NCBI GenBank assembly: GCA_016196545.1
Contig: JACPXM010000004.1
Span: 1-36,011 of the forward strand
Source: Candidatus Omnitrophota bacterium
Lineage (GTDB): Bacteria; Omnitrophota; Omnitrophia; Omnitrophales; Aquincolibacteriaceae
Length of the DNA: 36,011 bases
Reading direction: 5' to 3'
How positions within the stretch are numbered: the first letter of the stretch is position 1; every line of letters begins with the position of its first letter. Both the position numbers and the translations under genes were made by a program. The notes below the pieces were generated by a model, which searched no databases, was not told the origin of the DNA, and was given only the letters and a program-made list of their open reading frames with translations. This document shows, in pieces, positions 4,881 through 25,385 of this stretch.

Positions 4881-5144
4881 TTATGCAGATTTCAATCCCG
4901 AAAGAAATTTCGCGATGCGGGATTTTTTTCGGTCCGCACGGCCGCGGGGAATAATGCCTCGGGATACGGCCCGGTCGTAGCGGGAAATGACTTTAACGGC
5001 CAACTCCCTTGCCTTGGCGGGTTCGCCGGCCATTTTTTTGAGCCGGTCACCGAGGGTTTTGAGTTCGGAAATACATGCAAGATTCGTGATTCGCTTTTTT
5101 GCGTCGCTTCTCATTCTCTTTTCGGCAGATCGAATATTCGGCAT
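4881..5144 (-). CDS. rpsT: 30S ribosomal protein bS20
   Basis: 87-aa protein MPNIRSAEKRMRSDAKKRITN...RGIIPRGRADRKKSRIAKFL, characteristic of S20. The upstream part of the listed ORF is spurious; ATG at 5144. Confidence 0.9.
   Translation of the reverse strand: MPNIRSAEKRMRSDAKKRITNLACISELKTLGDRLKKMAGEPAKARELAVKVISRYDRAVSRGIIPRGRADRKKSRIAKFLSGLKSA
4895..4929 (+). terminator. possible intrinsic terminator for the holA operon, inside the 3' end of rpsT
   Basis: ATCCCG (4895-4900) pairs with CGGGAT (4918-4923), followed by a T-run to 4929. Confidence 0.4.
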
Positions 5145-5162
5145 TTGGAGAGATCCTCTTTC

Positions 5163-6821
5163 ATGGAAAAAAGTTCGCAGAATGTAACACAGCCCTCCGT
5201 TTCTGTCAATCCTAACCCTGAATCCTCTTTCAAGGCCCAAGGCAGAAGGCATTTGATCAAGGCCGCGGGTCTGGTGGGGATCTTCACGCTCACAAGCCGC
5301 ATTTTGGGATTGATTCGCGATATCGTAAGCGCTAACCGATACGGCACAAGCTGGCATTGGGACGTTTTTCTCTTTGCCTTTATGCTTCCCAATTTTCTGA
5401 GGCGGATTGTGGGCGAGGGTGCGCTTGCCAGTGCCTTTATTCCCGTCTACACAGAAATTTTGAATCAAAAGGGCCGCGAGGAGGCGTTTCGTTTTGCCAA
5501 TCTCATCGTCACTCTATCCGCCTGCTTTCTTGCGGTATTTAGCCTGGCGATGGAAGGTCTGCTCGGGTTAGGCCTGTCTTTTCTTCCGGATTCGGGAAGG
5601 CTCTCTTTGGTCTTTGATTTGCTTCGTTTTTTTATTCCTTACCTTTATCTGATTTCCCTTTTTGCCATGGGGATGGGAATTTTGAATTGTCACCAGCATT
5701 TTTTGGCACCTTCGCTGGGCCCCGTGATCTTGGACCTTTTTTGGATTGCCGGAATTCTGTGGATTGTGCCCTGGGTTCAGAGCGGAGGAAGGGTGGTGGA
5801 GCTGCGCTGGCTTGCCGGAGTCATTATGCTTTCAGGCATCGCTCAAGTCGCGGCGCAAATCCCTCCGCTTTACCGGCTGGGTTTTCGCCTCCAATGGATT
5901 TGGAATTTTAGGGATGCCGGTCTTCTAAAGACCGCAAGACTTTTTCTGCCCACCGTTTTGGGATTCGCGGTTGTACAAATTAATTTGCTGGTGGATTCCT
6001 CCATGAGTTTCATGATTGGCCCGGGCGCAAATTCCAGCCTTTGGTACGGTAACCGCATCATGCAGTTTCCGCTGGGAGTTTTTGCCATTGCGATGGGGAC
6101 AGCGCTTCTTCCCGCACTTTCCCACCAAAGGGCGCAAAAGGATTTGGCCGCGGCGCGGAAAACTCTGTCCTTTGCGCTTCGGAGTATTTTTCTGATCATT
6201 CTTCCCTGCACGGTCGGGCTGGTTGTCTTGAGCCAGCCCATTGTCCAGCTGCTCTTTGAAAGAGGAGAATTTGACGCGGCCTCCACCGGCCGGGCCGCGG
6301 CGGTGCTTGCGGCTTACAGCCTTGGTCTTTTTGCTTACTCCGGACAAAAAATCATCACTTCAGCCTTTTACGCGGTTCAGGATACGCGGACGCCTTTAAA
6401 AATTGCAGTGATTGCCTTGATCTCCAATGTCGCTTTGAATTTTATTTTCATGCGGCCCTTTCAAGAGGCGGGCCTTGCGCTTTCCACGACGCTTTCCGGA
6501 ACCTTGCAATTTTCACTCCTTGTGTTTTTTTATCACCGCAAAATTGCGGCCTTTCCGCTCAGAGAGGTTTTTGTTTCTTTTGGCCGTATTTTCGCTTCGT
6601 CCCTGGCCATGGGCCTTGCGGCGGCTGGGGTTTATCAGGGGTTCGTGCGCAGCCTGCCCGGTACCACCCTTTTCAATTTTCTTTTTCAAGTGTTTGGGAC
6701 CATTCTCATCTCGGTGGTGGCCTACGGATTGTTTTGCATTTTATTTCGGGTCTCTGAGCTTGGCGAGTTCTGGCGGGGACTGCAAAAAAAAGAGGGGCGC
6801 GGGCCTCTGCCCTTACCATGA
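5163..6821 (+). CDS. murJ: MurJ/MviN lipid II flippase
   Basis: Multi-TM protein with MviN hallmarks (TLTSRILGLIRDIVSANRYG, LLPALSHQ, SQPIVQLLFERGEFD). ATG at 5163 preferred over TTG at 5145. Confidence 0.92.
   Translation: MEKSSQNVTQPSVSVNPNPESSFKAQGRRHLIKAAGLVGIFTLTSRILGLIRDIVSANRYGTSWHWDVFLFAFMLPNFLRRIVGEGALASAFIPVYTEILNQKGREEAFRFANLIVTLSACFLAVFSLAMEGLLGLGLSFLPDSGRLSLVFDLLRFFIPYLYLISLFAMGMGILNCHQHFLAPSLGPVILDLFWIAGILWIVPWVQSGGRVVELRWLAGVIMLSGIAQVAAQIPPLYRLGFRLQWIWNFRDAGLLKTARLFLPTVLGFAVVQINLLVDSSMSFMIGPGANSSLWYGNRIMQFPLGVFAIAMGTALLPALSHQRAQKDLAAARKTLSFALRSIFLIILPCTVGLVVLSQPIVQLLFERGEFDAASTGRAAAVLAAYSLGLFAYSGQKIITSAFYAVQDTRTPLKIAVIALISNVALNFIFMRPFQEAGLALSTTLSGTLQFSLLVFFYHRKIAAFPLREVFVSFGRIFASSLAMGLAAAGVYQGFVRSLPGTTLFNFLFQVFGTILISVVAYGLFCILFRVSELGEFWRGLQKKEGRGPLPLP
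5181..5209 (-). promoter_or_regulatory. sigma70-type promoter for rpsT
   Basis: On the minus strand: TTGACA (5209-5204), 17-nt spacer, TACATT (5186-5181), about 30 nt upstream of the rpsT ATG; antisense within the 5' coding part of murJ. Confidence 0.6.
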
Positions 6822-8330: not shown

Positions 8331-9438
8331 ATGAAAGAAAGAATCGAGTACCTTCGGGAACAGTTGAACCATCTCCAAAGCAGGCTTCAAGAGATAAGGG
8401 GGTATCTTTGACCTCGAATCTCGCGAAGGGGAAATAGAGACCCTCAATCAAAAAATGGCAGCTGCCGGTTTTTGGGACCGTCCGGAAGAGGCCCAGAAAA
8501 TCGTGGAATCCCTCAAGACCCTCAAAAAAGTCGTAGACCCCTGGCATAAGGCGAATCGGGCGGCGTCTGATTTGGGAGAGCTTTTGGGGCTTCTCGATGA
8601 GAAGCAATCCGATCAGATTCAGGAAATGGAAGCAGAGCTTGCAGCGCTTGGCCGCGAGATCGAGGCCCTTGAGTTTCATCGGTTGCTTTCCGATCCGCTC
8701 GATCCTCGCGCCGCCATTGTCAGTCTCAATGCCGGGGCGGGTGGCACGGAGTCCTGCGATTGGACGGCCATGCTCGTGAGAATGTATATGCGTTGGGCCG
8801 AGGCGCGCGGCTTTAAAGTTTCTACGGTGGATTTAATGCAAGGGGAGGAAGCGGGCATCAAAAACACGACCTTCATCGTTGAAGGTCCCTACGCCTACGG
8901 TTATCTGAAAACCGAGGCCGGCGTGCACCGCCTTGTGCGCATTTCCCCCTTTGACTCCAACAAAAGACGCCATACCTCCTTTGCCTCTGTGGATGTCATT
9001 GCCGAAGTTGAAGACATCCCCGAAGTCGAGGTCAAGGAATCCGAGATCCGCATTGACACTTATCGTGCCGGCGGCGCCGGAGGCCAGCATGTCAATAAGA
9101 CTTCCAGCGCGGTGCGCATCACGCATCTTGCAACGGGCATCGTGGCTCAATGTCAGAACGAACGCTCCCAATTCCAAAACAAAACGGTTGCGATGAAAAT
9201 TCTAAAGGCGCGGCTCTATGAGCGCCTGCGCCAGGAAAAGGAAGAAGAGCTTAAAAGAAAATACGGCGAAAAAAAAGAAATCGCATGGGGATCGCAAATC
9301 CGTTCCTATGTTCTCCATCCTTACAATATGGTTAAAGATCACCGGACTCAGATTGAAACTTCCAACACACAGGCCGTGCTGGATGGCGATCTGGATGCCT
9401 TCATGATCGCTTATTTGAAAAAGGGTGCAGGAAAATAA
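8331..9438 (+). CDS. prfB: peptide chain release factor 2, programmed +1 frameshift
   Basis: ATG at 8331, in-frame TGA at 8409-8411 in AAGGGGG TAT CTT TGA C, then +1 frame [23 protein letters not shown]... with the GGQ motif ([19 protein letters not shown]). The listed ORF (8455) begins after the frameshift. Confidence 0.95.
8396..8412 (+). promoter_or_regulatory. RF2 recoding site (SD-like AAGGGGG, CTT-TGA-C slip site)
   Basis: AAGGGGG TAT CTT TGA C read directly; matches the conserved prfB frameshift element. Confidence 0.95.
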
Positions 9439-14983: not shown

Positions 14984-15742
14984 TTAAATAAGAGAGAGGC
15001 CGCCATCGGCCACTATGGTTTGGCCGACAATCCATTCGCTTTCGGGGGAGGCGAGAAAGCCGACCACTTTGGCGATATCTTCCGGTTTGCCAATGCGTCC
15101 TGCCGGCGTTCGCTTTACAACTTCATTTTTAAAGGATTCGTATTGAGGGAATGACTTGACGGCGTCGGTTTCCACAAGGCCACCCGAAACGCAATTGACG
15201 CGAATTTTTTTAGAGGCAAGCTCCACCGCGAGATAGCGGACTAGGGTTTCAAGCGCGGCTTTGGAAATTCCGATGGCGCCATAATCCGGGATAAAGCGCC
15301 TTGCCCCGAGGCTGGAAATGGTCATCATGCTCCCTCCTCCTCGTTGCTCCATGGAAGGCAGGGCCTTTTGGGCGAGTAAGTAAAAGGCCTTCGTATTCAC
15401 ATCCATCGAAAGGTCCCACTGATTGATTTTGAGTTTGTGAACAGGTTTGAATGCTCCAATGGCCGCATTGTGAACCAAAATATCAACTCCTCCGAAAATC
15501 GAAATCGTGGCCATTACCAAATCATCAATGATTTTGGGATCTCCGACATTGCCTTGAAAAAGAGATGCTTTTCGGCCCAGAGATTCCACCTCATTTTTTG
15601 CCGACAAAGCGGCCTCCTCATTACGGGCAAAATTGACCATAATATCCGCTCCGCGGGAGGCGAGTTCAAGCGCAATGGCGCGTCCGATGCCCCGAGAAGC
15701 CCCGGTAATGAGGGCGATTTTACCCGATAAGAGTTTTGTCAT
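14984..15742 (-). CDS. SDR oxidoreductase, FabL-type enoyl-ACP reductase-like
   Basis: Rossmann TGASRGIG; SSLGARRFIPDYGAIGISKAALETLVRYLAVEL with YX6K spacing; VSGGLVETDAVKSFPQYE; RTPAGR; GQTIVADGGLSLI. ATG at 15742 (MTKLLSGKIALITGAS) preferred. Confidence 0.8.
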   Translation of the reverse strand: MTKLLSGKIALITGASRGIGRAIALELASRGADIMVNFARNEEAALSAKNEVESLGRKASLFQGNVGDPKIIDDLVMATISIFGGVDILVHNAAIGAFKPVHKLKINQWDLSMDVNTKAFYLLAQKALPSMEQRGGGSMMTISSLGARRFIPDYGAIGISKAALETLVRYLAVELASKKIRVNCVSGGLVETDAVKSFPQYESFKNEVVKRTPAGRIGKPEDIAKVVGFLASPESEWIVGQTIVADGGLSLI

Positions 15743-15822: not shown

Positions 15823-16470
15823 GTGCCTCAACTTAAGGACTCACCGGGGGTTGTGAATTCCATTAAGGTTTTGATTCGAAATGCACAGCGCCGATGGCTG
15901 GACACCCTTGTGGCCCGGTTTCCCAAGCTTGGTTTGGATCAAAGGGCTGAGTATTTCGTTTCGCTTTTTGAAAAGGATTTGCCTTCGCGGTCCCGTGTTT
16001 TGGATATCGGGGGAGGATGGGGATTTTATTCGGAACCCCTGAGGCGCCGAGGTCATTGGCCTACGGTGCTGGATGTCGTAAAGCCGGGGATTCAAAAAAG
16101 CCCGCTTGTCATTTATGACGGTAAGCGAATCCCATTTCCGGATAAGAGTTTCGATGTCAGCTTATTCGTTACGGTGCTCCATCATGTGCCGGATCCTGAA
16201 GCGCTGTTGAACGAAGCTTCCCGTGTCACGCGCAAACAAGTCATATTGATTGAAGATATTTATCGGCACGGGTTGGGGCGTTTTTGGACAGAATGGCGCG
16301 ACCGGTTTTATAATTTTGAGTTCATCGGGCATCCGGCGAATTTTAGAAAGTCCGAGAATTGGATTCAAACCGCTGAACGTCGAGGTTGGCGCCTTATCCG
16401 CCAACACAAAGTTTACACTTGGCTGAGTGGCCTGCGGATTTGGAACGGAGTTTTTATCTTTGAGGTCTAA
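15823..16470 (+). CDS. class I SAM-dependent methyltransferase
   Basis: RVLDIGGGWGFYSEPLRRRGH and DKSFDVSLFVTVLHHVPDPEALLNEASRVT, methyltransferase-11-like. Start uncertain (GTG 15823 or GTG 15853). Confidence 0.85.
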   Translation: MPQLKDSPGVVNSIKVLIRNAQRRWLDTLVARFPKLGLDQRAEYFVSLFEKDLPSRSRVLDIGGGWGFYSEPLRRRGHWPTVLDVVKPGIQKSPLVIYDGKRIPFPDKSFDVSLFVTVLHHVPDPEALLNEASRVTRKQVILIEDIYRHGLGRFWTEWRDRFYNFEFIGHPANFRKSENWIQTAERRGWRLIRQHKVYTWLSGLRIWNGVFIFEV

Positions 16471-16476
16471 GGGGTT

Positions 16477-16887
16477 ATGAGACACGGTTGGAATATCGAA
16501 AAGGTTTTCTGGGCCAAAAAGGGGAAGGGCATTTCCGCCGCAGGCCAAATTCCTCCCGATGAAGAATTCTTTCAGGATCATTTTCCCGGATTTCCCGTGC
16601 TTCCGGGTGTCCTTGCGATTGAAATGCTCCGTCAAAGTGCCGAACTTTATTTTGAGATTACCGAGCCCGGCCACCGCCGCCAGTTATCCCTGAAAAAAAT
16701 TAAATCTGCAAAATTTTCTCATTATTTAAAGCCGGGGGATGCCTGGCAAAGCGAATTGGAGTTGATTTCAGAAGAGGAAGGAAAATCCGTTTGGAACGGG
16801 CGTGTTTTACATCAGGGCCGTCCCGCGATGGCGGCTGCCTTCGAACTTACGGTGGCGACGATTCCAGAATCCGCACTTGTTTCCTAA
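16477..16887 (+). CDS. FabZ-like hotdog 3-hydroxyacyl-ACP dehydratase (DH1)
   Basis: FFQDHFPGFPVLPGVLAIEMLRQSAELYF; His and Glu of the FabZ motif present. Confidence 0.85.
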   Translation: MRHGWNIEKVFWAKKGKGISAAGQIPPDEEFFQDHFPGFPVLPGVLAIEMLRQSAELYFEITEPGHRRQLSLKKIKSAKFSHYLKPGDAWQSELELISEEEGKSVWNGRVLHQGRPAMAAAFELTVATIPESALVS

Positions 16888-16902: not shown

Positions 16903-17295
16903 ATGCAGGATGAAATTTTTCAAAAGATTCAGTATATTTTAGCAGCGGCATTGGGGGTCGAGCGAAACGAGATTCATCCCGAATCCTCGCTGACGCGTGA
17001 CCTCGGTGCTGAATCCATCGATTTTATTGATATTATCTTCCGTCTTGAAAAAACATTCGACATTAAAATTCCCAGCGGTGAATTGTTTCCGGCAAACCTT
17101 TTGAATGATGACCGGTTTGTGAAAGAAGGAAAGGTGACAGCCCTGGGTCTTGACGAGCTCCGCGTCAGGGTGCCTTATCTGGACGTTGATACGTTTTCCA
17201 AAGACCCTCAAATTCATAAACTTTCGGAATTTTTTACGGTTCAGATGATTATTGCATATGTCCAGGACCGTCTTGCAAAAGCCAGTAAAGTTTAA
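16903..17295 (+). CDS. acyl carrier protein with internal insertion
   Basis: LTRDLGAESIDFIDIIFRLEKTFDIKI with phosphopantetheine Ser38 (codon 17014-17016); C-terminal helix FFTVQMIIAYVQDRLA; RBS-like AAGGAGG upstream. Confidence 0.88.
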   Translation: MQDEIFQKIQYILAAALGVERNEIHPESSLTRDLGAESIDFIDIIFRLEKTFDIKIPSGELFPANLLNDDRFVKEGKVTALGLDELRVRVPYLDVDTFSKDPQIHKLSEFFTVQMIIAYVQDRLAKASKV

Positions 17296-17300
17296 AGCCC

Positions 17301-17687
17301 GTGCCCCGAAATAAAGGGAAGCTTCTCGGCATTGGCATCGACCTCATTGCGATTTCCCGCGCCCGGGATTTTCTTTCAAGTCATCGGGATTTTATTTATC
17401 AACGTTTTTTATCGCGCCAAGAAGCGCAAAGACTGGGTTGTGCCCGCAAGCTTACTCCTTCCCTGTTTTCTAGAATGTTTTCTGCGAAAGAGGCCTATTT
17501 TAAATCCTTAAATGAGAAATGGCTGGGTCTTGGAGGATTTCGATCCATCGAAGTTAGGTTCTTGCCGGGAGATCGATTTCGAGTAAAATCTAACCTCTGG
17601 CCGATTTGCAGGCGATCTGTTGCAGAAGGCGCTTTTTTTTACGCTTCTGGACTTGTGGGTGCTCAAGTCTGTTTATGGAGATCCTGA
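17301..17687 (+). CDS. acpS: holo-ACP synthase, AcpS-type phosphopantetheinyl transferase
   Basis: LGIGIDLIAISRARDFL and FSRMFSAKEAYFKSLNEKWLGLGGFRSIEV; GTG start. Confidence 0.85.
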   Translation: MPRNKGKLLGIGIDLIAISRARDFLSSHRDFIYQRFLSRQEAQRLGCARKLTPSLFSRMFSAKEAYFKSLNEKWLGLGGFRSIEVRFLPGDRFRVKSNLWPICRRSVAEGAFFYASGLVGAQVCLWRS

Positions 17688-17694
17688 TCCTACG

Positions 17695-18126
17695 ATGCGA
17701 TGGCTTTTATTGGATGAAGTGGTTGAAATCATAAAGGGTAAAAAAGCGCGGGCGCGAAGCCACCTTTCAAACTCTGCTTTCAGCCCTGAAGTTCTCATGA
17801 TTGAAATGATGGCGCAAACTGCAGGACTTTTGTTCGGGGCCGAGTCGAATTTCCGCGAGGATTTAATTTTCGCTAAAATTGAATCGATGGAATTCAAGCC
17901 GCCCTTTCCTTACGGTGATGAATTATCAATTTATGCCGAGTCCTCAGAAATACGTCCAGAAGGTGGCTGGCTAAACACTTCCATTTATTGCCAGAACGAC
18001 TGTCTCGGACAGGGAAGAATCCTTCTCATGAATGTGGGGCGCCTTTTATCCGGTCACCCCGAGCCCCTCACATTTCACGCGGGGTTTATGGACCATTTTA
18101 AAGTCAAAGAGAAATTGCATTCATGA
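17695..18126 (+). CDS. hotdog dehydratase-like protein (DH2), divergent FabZ/FabA-type
   Basis: ARSHLSNSAFSPEVLMIEMMAQTAGLLFG aligns without gaps to HFPGxPVxPGVLxIExMAQ; His and Glu retained. Start at 17695 (MRWLLLDEV), since the listed start lies inside acpS. Confidence 0.75.
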   Translation: MRWLLLDEVVEIIKGKKARARSHLSNSAFSPEVLMIEMMAQTAGLLFGAESNFREDLIFAKIESMEFKPPFPYGDELSIYAESSEIRPEGGWLNTSIYCQNDCLGQGRILLMNVGRLLSGHPEPLTFHAGFMDHFKVKEKLHS

Positions 18127-19412
18127 AACAACGAATCGCGATAACGGGTATGGGTTTGATCACCTCGTGCGGGCTGGGCGTCGAGCCCTATTGGGAAGCC
18201 GTGAGCCGCGGGTTGTCCTACCTTGGTTATTTTTCAGATCCTTCTTATCAAAATTCCCCGGTTCGCATTGGCGGCCAGATCCGAGATTTTAACCCGATTG
18301 CGTTTGTAAAATCCCGAAAATCCCTAAAATTAATGTCCCGTGAAATACAGTTGGCCGTTGCTGCGAGTCAGCTTGCGGTTCAGGATTCCGGCCTTGATTT
18401 ATCTCAGGTGAACCGCGACCGGTTTGGAATTTCCATTGGGACCGGAATCATCAATAGCGAGCTGGATGAAGTCGGTTTGGGTATAAAAAATGGTTTGACG
18501 GACGAGGGGGAGTTTTGTTTTCAAAAATTCGGGCAAAGCGGTATCCGCTCGCTCTATCCTCTTTGGCTTTTAAAATATCTTCCCAATATGCCAGCCTGCC
18601 ATATTTCTATCGCGCATGGACTGCGCGGGCCCAGTAATACCATTACGACCTCTTCGGCAGCCGGGACCCAGGCTATCGGTGAAGCCTGCCGCATTATTGA
18701 GCGCGGTGACGCGGATTTAATGCTTTGCGGCGGCACAGATTCAAAAATCAACGCCATGGGACTGGCGAGATTTAATTCGCTTGGGCTTTTGTCCTTTCAT
18801 AATCATATTCCGCAAAAGGCCTATTGTCCTTTTGACAGGTGCCATGATGGAATCATTTTGGGGGAAGGTGCGGGACTGCTCGTCTTGGAGGGTTGGGAGC
18901 ATGCCCGGCGCCGGAGTGCCCGCATTTACGCGGAGATCGTCGGTTACGGTTCCTCTTCGGATTTTAATTATGATCCGAAGCATCCTGAGGATTTTACGGG
19001 CAAAAGGCAGGCCATGATGGGTGCGCTTCAGGATGCGGCCATGGCTCCAAATGAAATTGGATTTTTGCTGGCGAATGGAAGCGGCATTCCTTTGGAAGAC
19101 ATCCAGGAATCGCATGCCATTCAATCGGTATTTCAATCCGCGCTGAGTGAGATTAAGGTAACGGGGGTAAAACCTATCACGGGCCATGTGGTGTATGGGG
19201 CGGGGGGGGTCGAACTCGCGGCCGGCATTATGGCCTTGCGGGAGGGCAGGGTACCGCCGCTTGCAAATCTGGATGTGCCCGATCCGGAATGTGATCTTCC
19301 CTTCGCAAAAAAGGCGGAAAGCTCTGAAGCGAAGTCTTTTTTATTTAATTCTTTCGGCTTTGGCGGACAAAATGCTGCCCTTGTCGTGGCGCAGACGGAT
19401 TCCCGTGATTGA
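18123..19412 (+). CDS. degenerate beta-ketoacyl synthase, CLF-like (KS1)
   Basis: KS fold motifs (ITGMGLITSCGLGVEPYW, GEGAGLLVLE, FNSFGFGGQNAALVV), but TSSAAG replaces TACxSG and LANGSG replaces NAHGTxT. Confidence 0.88.
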   Translation: MKQRIAITGMGLITSCGLGVEPYWEAVSRGLSYLGYFSDPSYQNSPVRIGGQIRDFNPIAFVKSRKSLKLMSREIQLAVAASQLAVQDSGLDLSQVNRDRFGISIGTGIINSELDEVGLGIKNGLTDEGEFCFQKFGQSGIRSLYPLWLLKYLPNMPACHISIAHGLRGPSNTITTSSAAGTQAIGEACRIIERGDADLMLCGGTDSKINAMGLARFNSLGLLSFHNHIPQKAYCPFDRCHDGIILGEGAGLLVLEGWEHARRRSARIYAEIVGYGSSSDFNYDPKHPEDFTGKRQAMMGALQDAAMAPNEIGFLLANGSGIPLEDIQESHAIQSVFQSALSEIKVTGVKPITGHVVYGAGGVELAAGIMALREGRVPPLANLDVPDPECDLPFAKKAESSEAKSFLFNSFGFGGQNAALVVAQTDSRD

Positions 19413-20733
19413 AAAATCTTATTCTCCATTAACGGCACGGCGTGTGGTGATCACAGGCATGGGTGCTGTCACTCCCTTGGGGCTTTCGGTGCGCGAGATT
19501 TGGCCTCGTATGATCGAAGGCCATTCGGGGATTGGGCCTATCACGCTTTTTGACGCTTCTGAATTTCCCACCCGGATTGCGGGGGAGGTTAAGGGCTTCG
19601 ACTTCAACGCCTGGCTCGAGCGTGATTCCGCGCTGCAATTTGCCGGCCGCGGGACTTTTTTCGCTTTGAAGGCCGCAGAGGAGGCCTTCCGCGATTCCCA
19701 CCTGCGTTCCTTTAATATCAATCCCGATCGATTTGGAATCTATTTCGGTGCTGGGGATAGCGGGAGCGAATTTATTCCATTTGTGGAAATGGTGAAATCC
19801 TCTTTTTCAAATGCTTCCTCCGTGAACCCAGATTTGGTGGATAAAGGCCTTTTTGTCGGGCATTCCACGGAAAAAATGCATGGTCGCAAGGAGCTTGAAA
19901 TGCAGCCGTTTATGACAGTAGCGCATCTGGCGCGGCGTTTTGACATTCGCGGCCCCGTTTCCAACTGCCTTACGGCGTGCGCTGCTTCGTCCCAAGCCAT
20001 TGGTGAAGCGAGTGAATGGATTCGACGTGGGGATGCAGACATTGTGATGAGTGGAGGCGCGCATTCCATGGTTTATCCGCTTGGGATCGCCGGATTCAGC
20101 TCCCTTACTGTACTCTCTTCCTATAACGAGGACCCCGCTAAGGCTTCGCGTCCCTTCGATAAGAGGCGAGATGGTTTTGTGCTTGCAGAAGGGGCCGGAG
20201 TGGTTCTTCTCGAAGAATTACAGCATGCCCTAAAACGCCACGCCCGCATTTACGGAGAAATTATTGGTTATGGTTCAACGACGGATGCCTACCGACTGAC
20301 GGATATGGATCCGATTGGAGTGGGTGGGGCTCGGGCCATTGAAATGGCGCTAAAAAAGGCGCATCTTACAGCAGATGACATTAATTATATTAATGCCCAT
20401 GGGACCGCGACCTCGGTGAATGACGCCATTGAGACCTTGGTCATTAAAAAAGTTTTAGGGGCTAAAGCCTATGAAATACCGGTGAGCTCGATCAAGTCGA
20501 TGATAGGTCATATGATTGCTGCCGCCGGTGTCATGGAAGTGATTACTTGCTTGCTTGCGATGAAAGATAAAGTGATTCCTCCGACTATTAATTACGAGGA
20601 GCCGGACCCCGATTGCGATCTCGATTATGTGCCGAATCTTGCCCGCGAAAAGGAGGTCAAGGTTGCGCTTTCCAATTCCTTTGGATTTGGAGGGCAAAAT
20701 ATATGCCTGGCCCTATCCCGCTATGATGAATAA
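19405..20733 (+). CDS. beta-ketoacyl-ACP synthase with intact catalytic residues (KS2)
   Basis: NCLTACAASSQAIGEA (Cys codon 19978-19980), INAHGTATSVNDAIET, KSMIGHMIAAAG. GTG at 19405 overlaps the KS1 stop by 8 nt. Confidence 0.92.
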   Translation: MIEKSYSPLTARRVVITGMGAVTPLGLSVREIWPRMIEGHSGIGPITLFDASEFPTRIAGEVKGFDFNAWLERDSALQFAGRGTFFALKAAEEAFRDSHLRSFNINPDRFGIYFGAGDSGSEFIPFVEMVKSSFSNASSVNPDLVDKGLFVGHSTEKMHGRKELEMQPFMTVAHLARRFDIRGPVSNCLTACAASSQAIGEASEWIRRGDADIVMSGGAHSMVYPLGIAGFSSLTVLSSYNEDPAKASRPFDKRRDGFVLAEGAGVVLLEELQHALKRHARIYGEIIGYGSTTDAYRLTDMDPIGVGGARAIEMALKKAHLTADDINYINAHGTATSVNDAIETLVIKKVLGAKAYEIPVSSIKSMIGHMIAAAGVMEVITCLLAMKDKVIPPTINYEEPDPDCDLDYVPNLAREKEVKVALSNSFGFGGQNICLALSRYDE

Positions 20734-21838
20734 TCCCGCTCCTTCTTCCCGTTTTATTTTTCTCACGGGTTCCACTGGTTGCCTTGGCAAAGAGCTCCTC
20801 CGCCGTCTGCTTGCCTCTCCGGAAGTCAAACTGGGGCTCTTGATACGGCGCAAAGGTCGGCATTCCTGCTGGGATAGGGCGCGAAAAATCCTAGCGGCTT
20901 TTGAACTGGATTATTTGCTTGGAACACGCGTTGAAGTCTTTGACGGTGATATTACGATGCCTGATTTTGGGCTCGATCAAGAAGAACTGGATTTTTTGCG
21001 CCGCCGCACCGATGAGTTTTATCATGTCGCCGCGCTGACGGCTTTAAATGGTTCTGAAGAAGATTGCCGGGAGATAAACACGGAAGGCTCCCGCAGAGCG
21101 CTTCAAATGGCCTGGGATTTTCGCAATCACGGACGGTTGAACCGGTTTGTTTATTACAGCACGGCCTTTGTGGCCGGAAGCCTGCAAACTTATAAGGCGC
21201 TCGAAGACTCACTTCCCGAACAGCCGGCCCATGCGAATTTTTACGAGTCCAGCAAATATCAAGCGGAATTGTTGGTGCGCCAGGCCATAAGCGCAGGACT
21301 TCCTTGCACGATTTTTCGCCCCAGTATTGTCGTTGGGAATTCACAAACCGGAGAAGTTTCGGAATTTAATGTGATTTATCCTTTTATGCGTCTTTTTGTC
21401 CACGGGGTTCTCTCCACATTGCCTTCCCGGCTCGAACATTCTTTCAACATTGTTCCGATTGACTATGTGATTGAGGCCTCTCTTGCCATTGTCAGAATAC
21501 CTCAATCGATCGGCAAGACGTTTCATCTGGTGACGGAGACACCGCCTTCCGTTGCGGATTTATTCCGGCTTCGCGAAAGCGATTATTCTTTCGTGCCTCC
21601 GGTTCGGTTGGTGGATCCGGATCATTTTCGCAAGGAGGGCCTCTCGGCCGATGAGCAGTTGGTTTTTGAAATGCTTCAGCCTTATCTGGGCTATTTAAAC
21701 GGCGAACTCAGTTTTGATACGACCAATACCCGAAACGCACTCGAAGGCACACGGATTACCCCACCCAAAACCGATCAGGTTTTTCTTAAACGGTTGTTTC
21801 AATATGCCGTTGAGACGGGCTATTTAGTCGTAAAATAA
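20726..21838 (+). CDS. extended SDR, thioester-reductase-like NAD(P)-dependent reductase
   Basis: FLTGSTGCLGKELLRRLL, YYSTAFVAGS, FYESSKYQAELLVRQA (YxxxK), CTIFRPSIVVGNSQTGE. ATG at 20723 or 20726, overlapping the KS2 stop. Confidence 0.8.
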   Translation: MNNPAPSSRFIFLTGSTGCLGKELLRRLLASPEVKLGLLIRRKGRHSCWDRARKILAAFELDYLLGTRVEVFDGDITMPDFGLDQEELDFLRRRTDEFYHVAALTALNGSEEDCREINTEGSRRALQMAWDFRNHGRLNRFVYYSTAFVAGSLQTYKALEDSLPEQPAHANFYESSKYQAELLVRQAISAGLPCTIFRPSIVVGNSQTGEVSEFNVIYPFMRLFVHGVLSTLPSRLEHSFNIVPIDYVIEASLAIVRIPQSIGKTFHLVTETPPSVADLFRLRESDYSFVPPVRLVDPDHFRKEGLSADEQLVFEMLQPYLGYLNGELSFDTTNTRNALEGTRITPPKTDQVFLKRLFQYAVETGYLVVK

Positions 21839-21845
21839 AAGCCCC

Positions 21846-23000
21846 TTACCGCCAGCTTGTTTTGCCACGCGTGAATGCGATCCAAAAACTATTCCAAAGA
21901 ATTCCGCTTAAAATTAACGCTGCAAGAGAATGGACTAGGCTATAGCGAATCGGGGCCCTGACAATACCATAGCCGAGCATACAAACGGTGGTAATTAAAA
22001 CATTCAGGAGAAACCATGCTCCCCAAGGGCCCTGCCATACACTTTTTTCGTTCGAAAACATGAGGGCCGCTGTGACTCCCATAAAAATGAAAAAGGGGAG
22101 AGCGGAAAAAAACAAAAGATTAAGAGTCTTTATGAGTAATCTCACCGGATTTTGTTCAAAGGCGTGAAGATAAATACGCCTCCAGCCCTTCCAAAGAGAC
22201 TCGAAATTATCGTACATGCGTGTTCCGTAAACCTCGGTTCCCAGAGCACACTGGACTTTCGCACCGCTTTGCTTTGCTTTCTTCATCAATGCAAAATCCT
22301 CCAGAAAAGCTTCCCGGACGGATTCATGCCTGCCCAATGATTCATACAATTTACGGCGTATGAGAAGATATTGACCGTTCGCGAAGGCAAGCGGGTCGGT
22401 GGGATCATTGATTCGCTCAATGGGAAACCAAAGGCCGATATAACACATGGCAGCCGGTTGAATAAGATGCTCGCAGAATCCCTCCATAAGGGCTTCCGGT
22501 AAGAGAGTCAAAAAGGAAACCCCATGCCTTTGAGCGTGAGCCAGCGCAAGCCTAAGTCCCGCGGGTTTATGGCGTGTGTCGGCATCCGTGAAGAGGAGCC
22601 AATCTCCCGTTGCGTCCAGAGACCCGTGATGCAGGGCATAATTCTTTCCGGTCCATCCTCCCGGTGTGGCTGAAGTTGCCCGAGGCTGGATTTGCGGAGT
22701 CATAGAGGCTAACAAGGCAGGGGTTCGGTCACTGGATTCATTATCGATGGCGAAAATCTCTTTGGGCTCATAATCTTGAAGGACGAGAGACTCTAGACAG
22801 GCTGCAATATTTTTTTCTTCATTTTTCGCTGGGACGAGAATGGAAACCCGTTCCGGACAAGGGGCGTGTGATTCAGGCTGAGGGTTTTTTGAGATAACCG
22901 GTAGCTTTCTAAGCGTGAAAAGAGCCCGCCCCGAACGATACAGCCAGACTAGGGAGCTTGCGGCAAAAAGACACCAAAGTGAAACGGAAATAAATTGCAT
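21846..23000 (-). CDS. GT2-family glycosyltransferase, HpnB/CrtQ-like, membrane-associated
   Basis: VSILVPAKNEEKNIAACLESLVLQDYEPKEIFAIDNESSDRT, LLFTDADTRHKP, N- and C-terminal TM segments. ATG at 23000 (MQFISVSLW). Confidence 0.82.
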   Translation of the reverse strand: MQFISVSLWCLFAASSLVWLYRSGRALFTLRKLPVISKNPQPESHAPCPERVSILVPAKNEEKNIAACLESLVLQDYEPKEIFAIDNESSDRTPALLASMTPQIQPRATSATPGGWTGKNYALHHGSLDATGDWLLFTDADTRHKPAGLRLALAHAQRHGVSFLTLLPEALMEGFCEHLIQPAAMCYIGLWFPIERINDPTDPLAFANGQYLLIRRKLYESLGRHESVREAFLEDFALMKKAKQSGAKVQCALGTEVYGTRMYDNFESLWKGWRRIYLHAFEQNPVRLLIKTLNLLFFSALPFFIFMGVTAALMFSNEKSVWQGPWGAWFLLNVLITTVCMLGYGIVRAPIRYSLVHSLAALILSGILWNSFWIAFTRGKTSWR

Positions 23001-23042
23001 TTTCGAAGTGATTTTATCATAGAATAAGCCGAAAATTAAATC

Positions 23043-25385
23043 ATGCTTCTCTTTCGCAAAATAGCCGAATTCATCCTCCTTTTGAAGTGGCCCATTCTCC
23101 TTTGTTTCGTTCTCATCAGTTTGCTTATGATGAATGCGGCCTTTAAACTTCAAATCGATCCTTCCATGGAGCCCCTCTTTATCAAAGGCTCCGAAGAGTA
23201 TCGCTATTATCAAGAATACAACCTCCGCTATGGAAGCGATGAAATGATCGCTGTGGCCATGGCGACCCCCGACCTTTTTACCGTACGCCATTTGGCCAAG
23301 CTTGAGGAGCTCACCTCCAGTTTAAAAAAATTTCCGCAGGTTGAAAAGGTCATGAGCCTGGCATCCGTCATGGATATCAAACACAAATTCATGGGAGTCA
23401 AAATCGTCCCGGCCCTTGAAGCCTTTTTTGAGGGGGAAGAATCCCTCACCGAACTCCGGAAAAACATTCTCTCCAACCCTCTCTTCGTCCACAATCTTGT
23501 TTCTGCGGACGGGAAAATTGCAAACCTTGTCGTTTATTTAAAAACCACAGGTCCGGATAAGGCAAAAGGGGCAGGCTTATTCATTAAAGAGCTCCAGCAG
23601 CTCCTTAAAAAGGAAGCAAGGGAAGGAGTTGAGTTTTACATGGCCGGCTCTCCGGTCGAGCAGTATGAATTTATCAGCCTGATCCGCCGCGACCAGTTTC
23701 TCTTTGTCCCTTTAATCGCACTTTTATTGATTGTTACAACGCTCATCATTTACCGAAGTTTTGCCTGCATGATCCTTTCCATGACCATTGTCTTTATGAC
23801 GCTCACGTGGACACTCGGTACGATTTCCTTGTTGGGCAAGGAACTTAATTTGATGACTTCGCTGCTTGCACCCGTCATCATGATTATTGCGGTTGTCAAC
23901 ACGGTCTATCTCATGAATCTTTTCTTTGAGATTCGCCCTCATCATCCGAGCATGCGCTATTCCGTGATCCTGACCATTGAGCAGCTCGGGGTACCTTCCT
24001 TTTTGACCCATATGACGACGTTTCTCGGATTTTTTTCTTTAGCCCTCAATTCCATTCCCGCGATTCGGAGTTTTGGAATATTCGCAGCCGTGGGCACTTT
24101 TTATTCTTACGTGATTGAACTTGTGATGACGACCATTCTTCTTCCCATTCTTCCGTACCGCCGTTTGCGCGAATTTTTTGATGAGCGGAAATTTTTTAAC
24201 CGCATTGTCATCAATTTTTTGGAAAACCTCGAGGCCCATTGGAAATGGGTCATTTTGGCGGGCGCTGCACTAACGTTCATTTTTTCGGTGATCGGAATCT
24301 CGAAAATCCGTGTCGATACGAATATTGTCAAACAAATGAAACCCGATGTTCCCTTGGCAGTAGCCACGCGGTTCATTGATGAAAATCTGACCGGTGTTTA
24401 CTCGCTTGGATTTGTTATGAGAAGAAAGAACGGCGGCACTTTTGTGGATTATGAAACCCTTGAGAAAGTGGACCGCTTTGTTCAATACCTTGAGTCGAAG
24501 CCTGAAATTCCAAAGGCGAACTCTTTGACGACGCTTTTAAAGAAAATTAATGCGGCCAAGGAAGGCGAAATGACAGAAATGAAAATAACGAGCGATCCGG
24601 AAATGTTGGAGAGGTATTTTAAGGGTATCAGTGAATCCGAGGATCCGGAGGTATGGAAGTATATCTCCACCGATTTGAGAGAGATGCGTATCGAGGCTCG
24701 CATGAAGGCGGTTGGGACGACGGAAGGTGCCGCCGTGGAACGGGATATCCTTCAGTACCTCGACCAGCAATTAGGTCACGATTTTGATTATCATGTGACG
24801 GGAAATGTGGTTTTGCTCGGAAAGATTGCTGAAGAGCTTGTCCAGGAGCAAGCCAAGAGTTTCGGTTTTGCATTCGCAGCCATCTTGATTTTAATCACAC
24901 TGATTTTCCGTTCGCTCCTGATGGGTCTTTTAGCAGCAGTTCCCAATCTTATTCCGATTCTTGCGGTTTACGCGGTTACGGGATTTATGGGTATTGAGCT
25001 CTCTTCAGCGACGGCGATGATTGCCAGCATTGTCCTGGGGCTTGTCGTGGACGCCTCCATTCAGTTCCTCTATCGTTTTCGTCATGAGTTCAAACGTCGC
25101 TTCCATTATTTGCAGTCGTTGCATCATACTTACCGGAATATGGGGCAGTCCATGATCATTTCGACGATTATTCTTTGTGCGGGTTTTGGTTCCAGCGTCT
25201 TTTCGAGCTTTCATCCCACGGTTCACTTCGGATTGATGACAAGTCTTGCAATATTTTTTGCGCTTATTTGTACGTTGATTGTGCTGCCTGTATGTTTGAT
25301 GATGTTGCGGCCCTTTGGGAAGGAAAAGCTCTTTAAAAAGGAGCCTCGGACTGACGAATTTAAAGTGATTGTAACTTCCGATTAA
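23043..25385 (+). CDS. MMPL/RND-family exporter (HpnN-like)
   Basis: 780-aa two-repeat TM architecture; hydrophobic blocks around FVPLIALLLIVTTLIIYRSF and FAFAAILILITLIFRSLLMGLLAAVPNLIPILAVYAVTGFMGIELSSATAMIASIVLGLVVDASIQFLYRFRHE. Confidence 0.85.
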   Translation: MLLFRKIAEFILLLKWPILLCFVLISLLMMNAAFKLQIDPSMEPLFIKGSEEYRYYQEYNLRYGSDEMIAVAMATPDLFTVRHLAKLEELTSSLKKFPQVEKVMSLASVMDIKHKFMGVKIVPALEAFFEGEESLTELRKNILSNPLFVHNLVSADGKIANLVVYLKTTGPDKAKGAGLFIKELQQLLKKEAREGVEFYMAGSPVEQYEFISLIRRDQFLFVPLIALLLIVTTLIIYRSFACMILSMTIVFMTLTWTLGTISLLGKELNLMTSLLAPVIMIIAVVNTVYLMNLFFEIRPHHPSMRYSVILTIEQLGVPSFLTHMTTFLGFFSLALNSIPAIRSFGIFAAVGTFYSYVIELVMTTILLPILPYRRLREFFDERKFFNRIVINFLENLEAHWKWVILAGAALTFIFSVIGISKIRVDTNIVKQMKPDVPLAVATRFIDENLTGVYSLGFVMRRKNGGTFVDYETLEKVDRFVQYLESKPEIPKANSLTTLLKKINAAKEGEMTEMKITSDPEMLERYFKGISESEDPEVWKYISTDLREMRIEARMKAVGTTEGAAVERDILQYLDQQLGHDFDYHVTGNVVLLGKIAEELVQEQAKSFGFAFAAILILITLIFRSLLMGLLAAVPNLIPILAVYAVTGFMGIELSSATAMIASIVLGLVVDASIQFLYRFRHEFKRRFHYLQSLHHTYRNMGQSMIISTIILCAGFGSSVFSSFHPTVHFGLMTSLAIFFALICTLIVLPVCLMMLRPFGKEKLFKKEPRTDEFKVIVTSD

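Follow-up and report, generated by a model that had tools for sequence, protein, structure and literature searches.

Introduction

The closest characterised parallel to the protein described here is AcpXL, a rhizobial acyl carrier protein (ACP) represented by the PDB entries 2kw2 and 3lmo and by the models NF005079 and PRK06508. AcpXL combines an ACP core and a similar helix II with an extension between helices II and IV, and its operon, like our locus, contains a FabZ and a pair of ketosynthases (KS). It differs in the size of the extension, which at 16 aa is too short to hold the helix found in the insert of the long ACP. Its partners differ as well, since AcpXL is accompanied by LpxXL and a dehydrogenase, whereas the long-ACP loci have a thioester reductase or a hydrolase and a second FabZ. 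The long ACP may resemble AcpXL in the way it works, although it is a different protein. Housekeeping AcpP (TIGR00517, NF002148) shares the phosphopantetheine site and the four-helix bundle but, with a typical length of about 80 aa, is about 44 residues shorter and is encoded at another locus.

A third point of comparison is offered by type II polyketide synthase (PKS) systems of the KS-chain-length factor (CLF) kind, in which a Cys-containing KS and a Cys-less KS stand in tandem beside an ACP. The same arrangement is present in our locus (TACAASS in KS2, TTSSAAG in KS1). In the accessible text of the KS-CLF catalogue, such pairs are recorded from Ca. Omnitrophica and Planctomycetes; our locus differs from the systems treated in that text by the insert in its ACP and by the FabZ pair that flanks the ACP (PMC10132072). 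Cys-less FabB/F paralogues have been reported from R. baltica and Kuenenia, and, in the accessible text of that report, position Cys163 is occupied by Asp or Glu in two FabF paralogues of R. baltica (PMC2649909), which matches the Asp or Glu that we found at the catalytic Cys position of planctomycete KS1 (L038, L041, L047, L102). Within the accessible text of these two publications, no mention was found of an ACP with such an insert (PMC10132072, PMC2649909). Searches of the accessible literature for ACPs with a comparable insert, or for Omnitrophota polyene clusters, likewise returned nothing relevant.

Here we analyse a long-insert ACP gene and its surroundings in a stretch of 36,011 nucleotides from a Candidatus Omnitrophota bacterium (contig JACPXM010000004.1), referred to below as the window.

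Results

The long ACP and its gene cluster

The long ACP is encoded from an ATG start that is preceded, approximately 10 nt upstream, by AGGAGG (Table 1). It passes the Pfam PP-binding model PF00550 at 42.8 bits (cut-off 20.8), with the match covering residues 8-62 only. All NCBIfam ACP models end by residue 66 of the protein, and none is reached at its cut-off. Specifically, the housekeeping AcpP models score 52.3 against 70.45 bits (TIGR00517) and 61 against 71 bits (NF002148), and the AcpXL model NF005079 scores 46.1 against 83 bits on residues 5-59 only. The attachment residue Ser38 is invariant in 22 of 22 members of the long-ACP family (alignment A1). Judged by the Ser38 motif, the neighbouring AcpS-type enzyme and the surrounding gene set, the assignment of the long ACP as a carrier is secure. 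The host genome (1.2 Mb, 72% complete) contains one other ACP, which belongs to a housekeeping set of the fabG-acpP-fabF type, separate from the long-ACP locus. One long and one short ACP were present in each long-ACP genome that we inspected individually.

The eight genes from the methyltransferase to the thioester reductase (methyltransferase-FabZ1-ACP-AcpS-FabZ2-KS1-KS2-thioester reductase) are encoded on the same strand, neighbouring genes being either separated by small gaps or overlapping. A scan for promoters and terminators gave no more sites than expected by chance. Against TIGR01746, the thioester reductase scored 153.8 bits, under the cut-off of 213.

Table 1. Coordinates of the long-ACP cluster, of the parts of the long ACP, and of the host genome's housekeeping ACP (window positions unless a contig is given).
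Feature	Position	Strand	Basis or remark
SDR reductase, closest to FabL/FabG models	14984-15742	-	divergent neighbour, conserved in family f1
SAM methyltransferase	15823-16470	+	first gene of the run
FabZ1, 3-hydroxyacyl-ACP dehydratase-like	16477-16887	+	motif; HFPGFPVLPGV intact
Long ACP, 130 aa	16903-17295	+	ATG start; Pfam PP-binding, 42.8 bits on residues 8-62
Ser38 codon, phosphopantetheine attachment site	17014-17016	+	motif DLGAESID
Insert, residues ~57-103 (SGELFP...DTFSK)	17071-17211	+	two AlphaFold models, alignment, insert-only HMM, dN/dS
Canonical helices III (104-110) and IV (113-128), after the insert	17212-17286	+	AlphaFold; Foldseek across the gap
AcpS-type phosphopantetheinyl transferase	17301-17687	+	PF01648; FSAKEAYFK
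FabZ2, FabZ-like	17695-18126	+	catalytic-His HFPG motif absent in the window's family
KS1, ketosynthase-like, chain-length-factor-like	18123-19412	+	active-site Cys absent (TTSSAAGTQ); first His replaced (LANGSG)
KS2, ketosynthase	19405-20733	+	Cys-His-His intact (TACAASSQ, NAHGTATS, SMIGH); start codon uncertain
Thioester reductase, candidate chain-release enzyme	20717-21838	+	NAD_binding_4; start codon uncertain
Family 2 glycosyltransferase	21846-23021	-	conserved neighbour in Omnitrophota
MMPL/HAE3-type RND transporter	23043-25385	+	
Housekeeping ACP, own genome	G000:C7:22104-22307		normal length, no insert; adjoins SDR and KS genes

Position and fold of the insert

A sequence-only reading of the locus had proposed that some 45-50 extra residues separate helices II and III of this ACP, and that typical ACPs lack them. 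Alignment and structure prediction agree with both points. Since DPQIHKLSEFFTVQMIIAYV of the long ACP aligns with the canonical helix III/IV region, where AcpP of the same genome has DEDAEKIQTVGDAIRYI, the insert must fall after helix II and before helix III. The same alignment columns hold 49 residues in the long ACP as against 5 in housekeeping ACPs, a net gain of approximately 44, and the insert was absent from all 20 housekeeping ACPs compared (the host's own and 19 others from these phyla). In the AlphaFold model of the window ACP (pLDDT 89.8, pTM 0.83; 22-member alignment A1), helices I (residues 2-17) and II (38-52) are followed by the insert and then by helices III and IV, the topology that the earlier reading had given. 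The insert itself is predicted to consist of an extended loop, a beta-hairpin (73-78), a helix (80-89) and a short helix (95-98). A model of a planctomycete relative, built from an alignment that contained no Omnitrophota sequences, has an identical order of elements (pLDDT 92.9). The residue blocks named in the earlier reading were quoted exactly; however, the block assigned there to the insert (ending ...HKLSE) takes in canonical helix III (DPQIHKLSE).

In Foldseek comparisons, small ACPs aligned over their whole length, with the insert left as a gap, and target TM-scores reached 0.88. Among the top Foldseek matches listed there was no solved ACP of similar length, the largest ACP chain being AcpXL with 101 residues, and a sequence search of the PDB gave no chain aligning convincingly over the insert. 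No Pfam or NCBIfam model covers it, and Pfam yielded nothing convincing across the 22 family members. Moreover, a profile of the insert alone, applied to all reading frames of the DNA examined, matched only ACPs and gave no instance of the insert as an independent domain.

Conservation of the insert

The length of the insert is nearly constant (48-52 aa). In alignment A1, Thr79 and Gly82 are invariant across the 22 members and Pro91 is nearly so. Within Omnitrophota, identity is 59% in the insert and 65% in the core; between phyla it falls to 40% and 51%, a level of conservation that speaks against chance. Pairwise dN/dS has a median of 0.165 in the insert as against 0.134 in the core, values that are approximate because dS, at about 1.5, is near saturation; these ratios indicate purifying selection on the insert similar to that on the core. 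The ACPs matched by the insert-only profile, a search that the earlier reading had proposed, came from Omnitrophota, from planctomycetes, including diverged loci (E 7e-5), and from Streptomyces plasmids (E 2.5e-4 and 8.8e-4). Taken together, sequence conservation, dN/dS and the restriction of profile matches to ACPs identify the insert as a common, selected element. Its conservation, its absence from housekeeping ACPs and its position beside a dedicated acyl-chain gene set also bear out the earlier proposal of a specialised carrier subfamily. The long ACP is a conserved and apparently undescribed variant of ACP.

Distribution of long-insert ACPs

A long ACP was found in 33 of the 237 Omnitrophota genomes sampled and in at least 59 of 294 Planctomycetota genomes, at least 50 of these with a strong match and at least 9 with the diverged type only. 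The search considered up to 14 candidates per genome, so that the planctomycete counts, above all for large genomes, are lower bounds. A scan of 84,980 species genomes with patterns derived from the window protein, which reaches close relatives only, located 21 loci, all in Omnitrophota and Planctomycetota. Full-length relatives were also present on Streptomyces plasmids (L108-L110) in type II PKS-like clusters. These resemble the window in their homologous insert, of 52 residues, and in the placement of the ACP beside FabD and KS genes. They differ in their identity of only 35%, in additional KS-like and KSIII-like genes and in their secondary-metabolite context; the clusters contain FabD, two KS, a KS-family protein of ~790 aa and a KSIII-like gene, with an AcpS in two of the three. 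A diverged planctomycete ACP used as query against plasmids found no match, and phage records yielded ordinary ACPs only. Because the tree of the ACP core has only ~76 columns and its deep branches have weak support, it does no more than suggest that the insert arose once.

Several further ACPs were encountered during these searches. An IMG/VR contig of 390 kb with phage-like genes (L105), putatively from a large phage, encodes at 5001-5360 a long-insert ACP that is 42% identical and adjoins a phage-type DNA methyltransferase. Viral contigs L106 and L107 carry relatives with the same LFP core and only ~12 residues at the insert site. In planctomycetes, the clusters L085-L094 encode diverged long-insert ACPs, several of them beside nitroreductase, SDR, FabZ-like and radical SAM genes, a gene content that points to a different pathway using the same kind of carrier. 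The Photobacterium plasmid pDA100 (L134, 5998-6456) encodes an ACP of 152 aa whose extension, also in the middle of the protein, is of another kind; four ketosynthase-like genes come after it.

Gene neighbourhood in relatives

The earlier reading had suggested a carrier tied to this pathway and had asked whether ACPs with the insert always occur together with the KS pair. In Omnitrophota they do: the pair was present in 21 of the 21 loci with enough contig to judge. In planctomycetes they do not: two KS occur in 4 of 25 loci, one in 12 and none in 9. Constant co-occurrence with the KS pair is therefore refuted, and what the insert accompanies is the pair of FabZ-like genes. A tie to this pathway alone is too narrow, homologous inserts being present also in the Streptomyces plasmid clusters and in the planctomycete clusters with nitroreductase and radical SAM genes. 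Omnitrophota loci had a downstream FabZ in 24 of 24 testable cases and an upstream one in 23 of 25; for planctomycete loci the figures were 25 of 26 and 22 of 26. Where no KS lies near the planctomycete long ACP, either the KS is encoded elsewhere or the role of the carrier differs.

Gene order is stable across Omnitrophota genera, and five of the longer loci there have an adjoining MMPL/HAE3-type transporter. The order FabZ-(SDR)-ACP-FabZ is stable in planctomycetes, often with an alpha/beta hydrolase next, and most planctomycete FabZ2 homologues keep the HFPG motif. KS2 retains its Cys across the two phyla, and KS1 is without it in most Omnitrophota and in the planctomycete pairs. In one Omnitrophota family (f7; L072, L073) KS1 does retain the Cys, so that KS1 there need not be a pure chain-length factor.

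Proposed pathway and alternatives

We consider it probable that a second, type II fatty-acid or polyketide-like pathway, of KS/CLF type, making a long-chain acyl product and distinct from housekeeping fatty acid synthesis, has the long ACP as its dedicated carrier, and that the insert is a partner-recognition or acyl-shielding element. In such a pathway, the neighbouring AcpS-type enzyme would load phosphopantetheine onto Ser38. KS2 would then elongate the chain on the long ACP, presumably paired with the Cys-less KS1 as chain-length factor, and dehydration would fall to FabZ1 together with FabZ2, the latter predicted to be catalytically degenerate in the window's family. In Omnitrophota the chain would probably be released reductively by the thioester reductase, after which it may be glycosylated and exported by the MMPL transporter. 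In planctomycetes, the alpha/beta hydrolase occupies the release position, and release there is predicted to be hydrolytic.

As an alternative, the long ACP might carry a very-long-chain acyl group for lipid A, as AcpXL does with a very-long-chain hydroxy fatty acid. The S. meliloti acpXL locus (L111) is ordered ACP-FabZ-KS-KS-dehydrogenase-lipid A acyltransferase (PMC11901934), and at the site of the insert AcpXL is also extended, though less so (16 residues, against 5 in housekeeping ACPs). The two cores are alike, AcpXL being placed closer to the long ACPs than to housekeeping ACPs in the core tree (0.93), and LpxC was found in 24 of 25 genomes of the family. We nevertheless regard a lipid A role as unlikely. 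The long ACP fails the AcpXL model, and AcpXL is not matched by the insert-only profile. The conserved neighbours of the cluster include a thioester reductase and a glycosyltransferase instead of a lipid A acyltransferase or alcohol dehydrogenase, and lipid A acyltransferases are located elsewhere in relatives. Furthermore, in two genomes of the family (G009, G010) LpxC is present and no long ACP was found.

The gene content also recalls pigment synthesis, and the long ACP could be the carrier of an aryl-polyene-like pathway. Our cluster agrees with the usual composition of aryl-polyene clusters in its KS/CLF-type pair, in its methyltransferase, glycosyltransferase and MMPL exporter, in an SDR that resembles ketoreductases and in two dehydratase-like proteins, one of them degenerate. 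To our knowledge, however, a thioester reductase is not usual in such clusters, and none of the annotated window neighbours is an AMP-ligase for an aryl starter. The ACPs of an enterobacterial cluster of aryl-polyene type (Klebsiella, L136) are short, with 5 residues in place of the insert. This reading seems to us somewhat less credible than a role in lipid A.

It is more doubtful still that the insert is an expansion tolerated at the surface, without a task specific to the pathway. Such an expansion would fit the lower conservation of the insert relative to the core between planctomycetes (44% versus 64% identity) and the existence of the insert-poor viral relatives with an LFP core. It fits poorly with an element of near-constant length that folds confidently in two models, has invariant Thr and Gly residues, is under core-like purifying selection and recurs in Streptomyces and diverged planctomycete ACPs. 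Finally, a sequencing or frameshift artefact is excluded by the occurrence of the insert, in frame, in dozens of independent genomes, and a general trait of the phylum's housekeeping ACPs is excluded by the 20 ordinary ACPs that lack it; we give virtually no weight to either.

How would the insert serve a dedicated carrier of a second acyl-chain pathway? ACPs contact their partners mainly through helices II and III, and for this reason the most plausible function of a folded insert between the two would be to determine which partners are recognised or to shield a long chain. The hairpin and helix are predicted to lie on the partner-contact side of the ACP, next to the acyl pocket. There the insert would most likely serve as an identity element by which the carrier is admitted to the FabZ pair and KS of its own pathway, as a lid that enlarges the pocket for a long chain, or as both. 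More tentatively, the long ACPs of Omnitrophota, Planctomycetota, Actinomycetota plasmids and a putative large phage might together form an undescribed class of ACP, in which a hairpin-helix recognition subdomain, working with the FabZ-FabZ pair or other dedicated partners, insulates a long-chain lipid or polyketide pathway from housekeeping synthesis; we see this broader proposal as possible and hold it with less confidence than the carrier assignment for the pathway itself.

A conserved fold between the partner-choosing helices of otherwise uniform ACPs offers a natural test of how two acyl-chain pathways are kept separate. The group also points to a conserved set of lipid or polyketide genes in Omnitrophota and Planctomycetota, whose lipid chemistry is poorly characterised, and the insert-only profile provides a sequence handle for finding such pathways elsewhere.

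Other features of the genome and window

No PF01648 match other than the AcpS of the cluster was found in this genome (72% complete), so that the enzyme might activate the housekeeping ACP as well. Outside the cluster, the genome has a single FabA/FabZ-family match (G000:C46:15493-16743), which lies in the same 435-aa open frame as LpxC and thus represents an LpxC-FabZ fusion. Elsewhere in the window, prfB, the gene for release factor 2, occupies 8331-9438 on the forward strand. A short ORF from the ATG at 8331 stops at AGGGGGTATCTTTGAC before the main frame, and the gene appears to need a classic programmed +1 frameshift at a site near 8398-8412.
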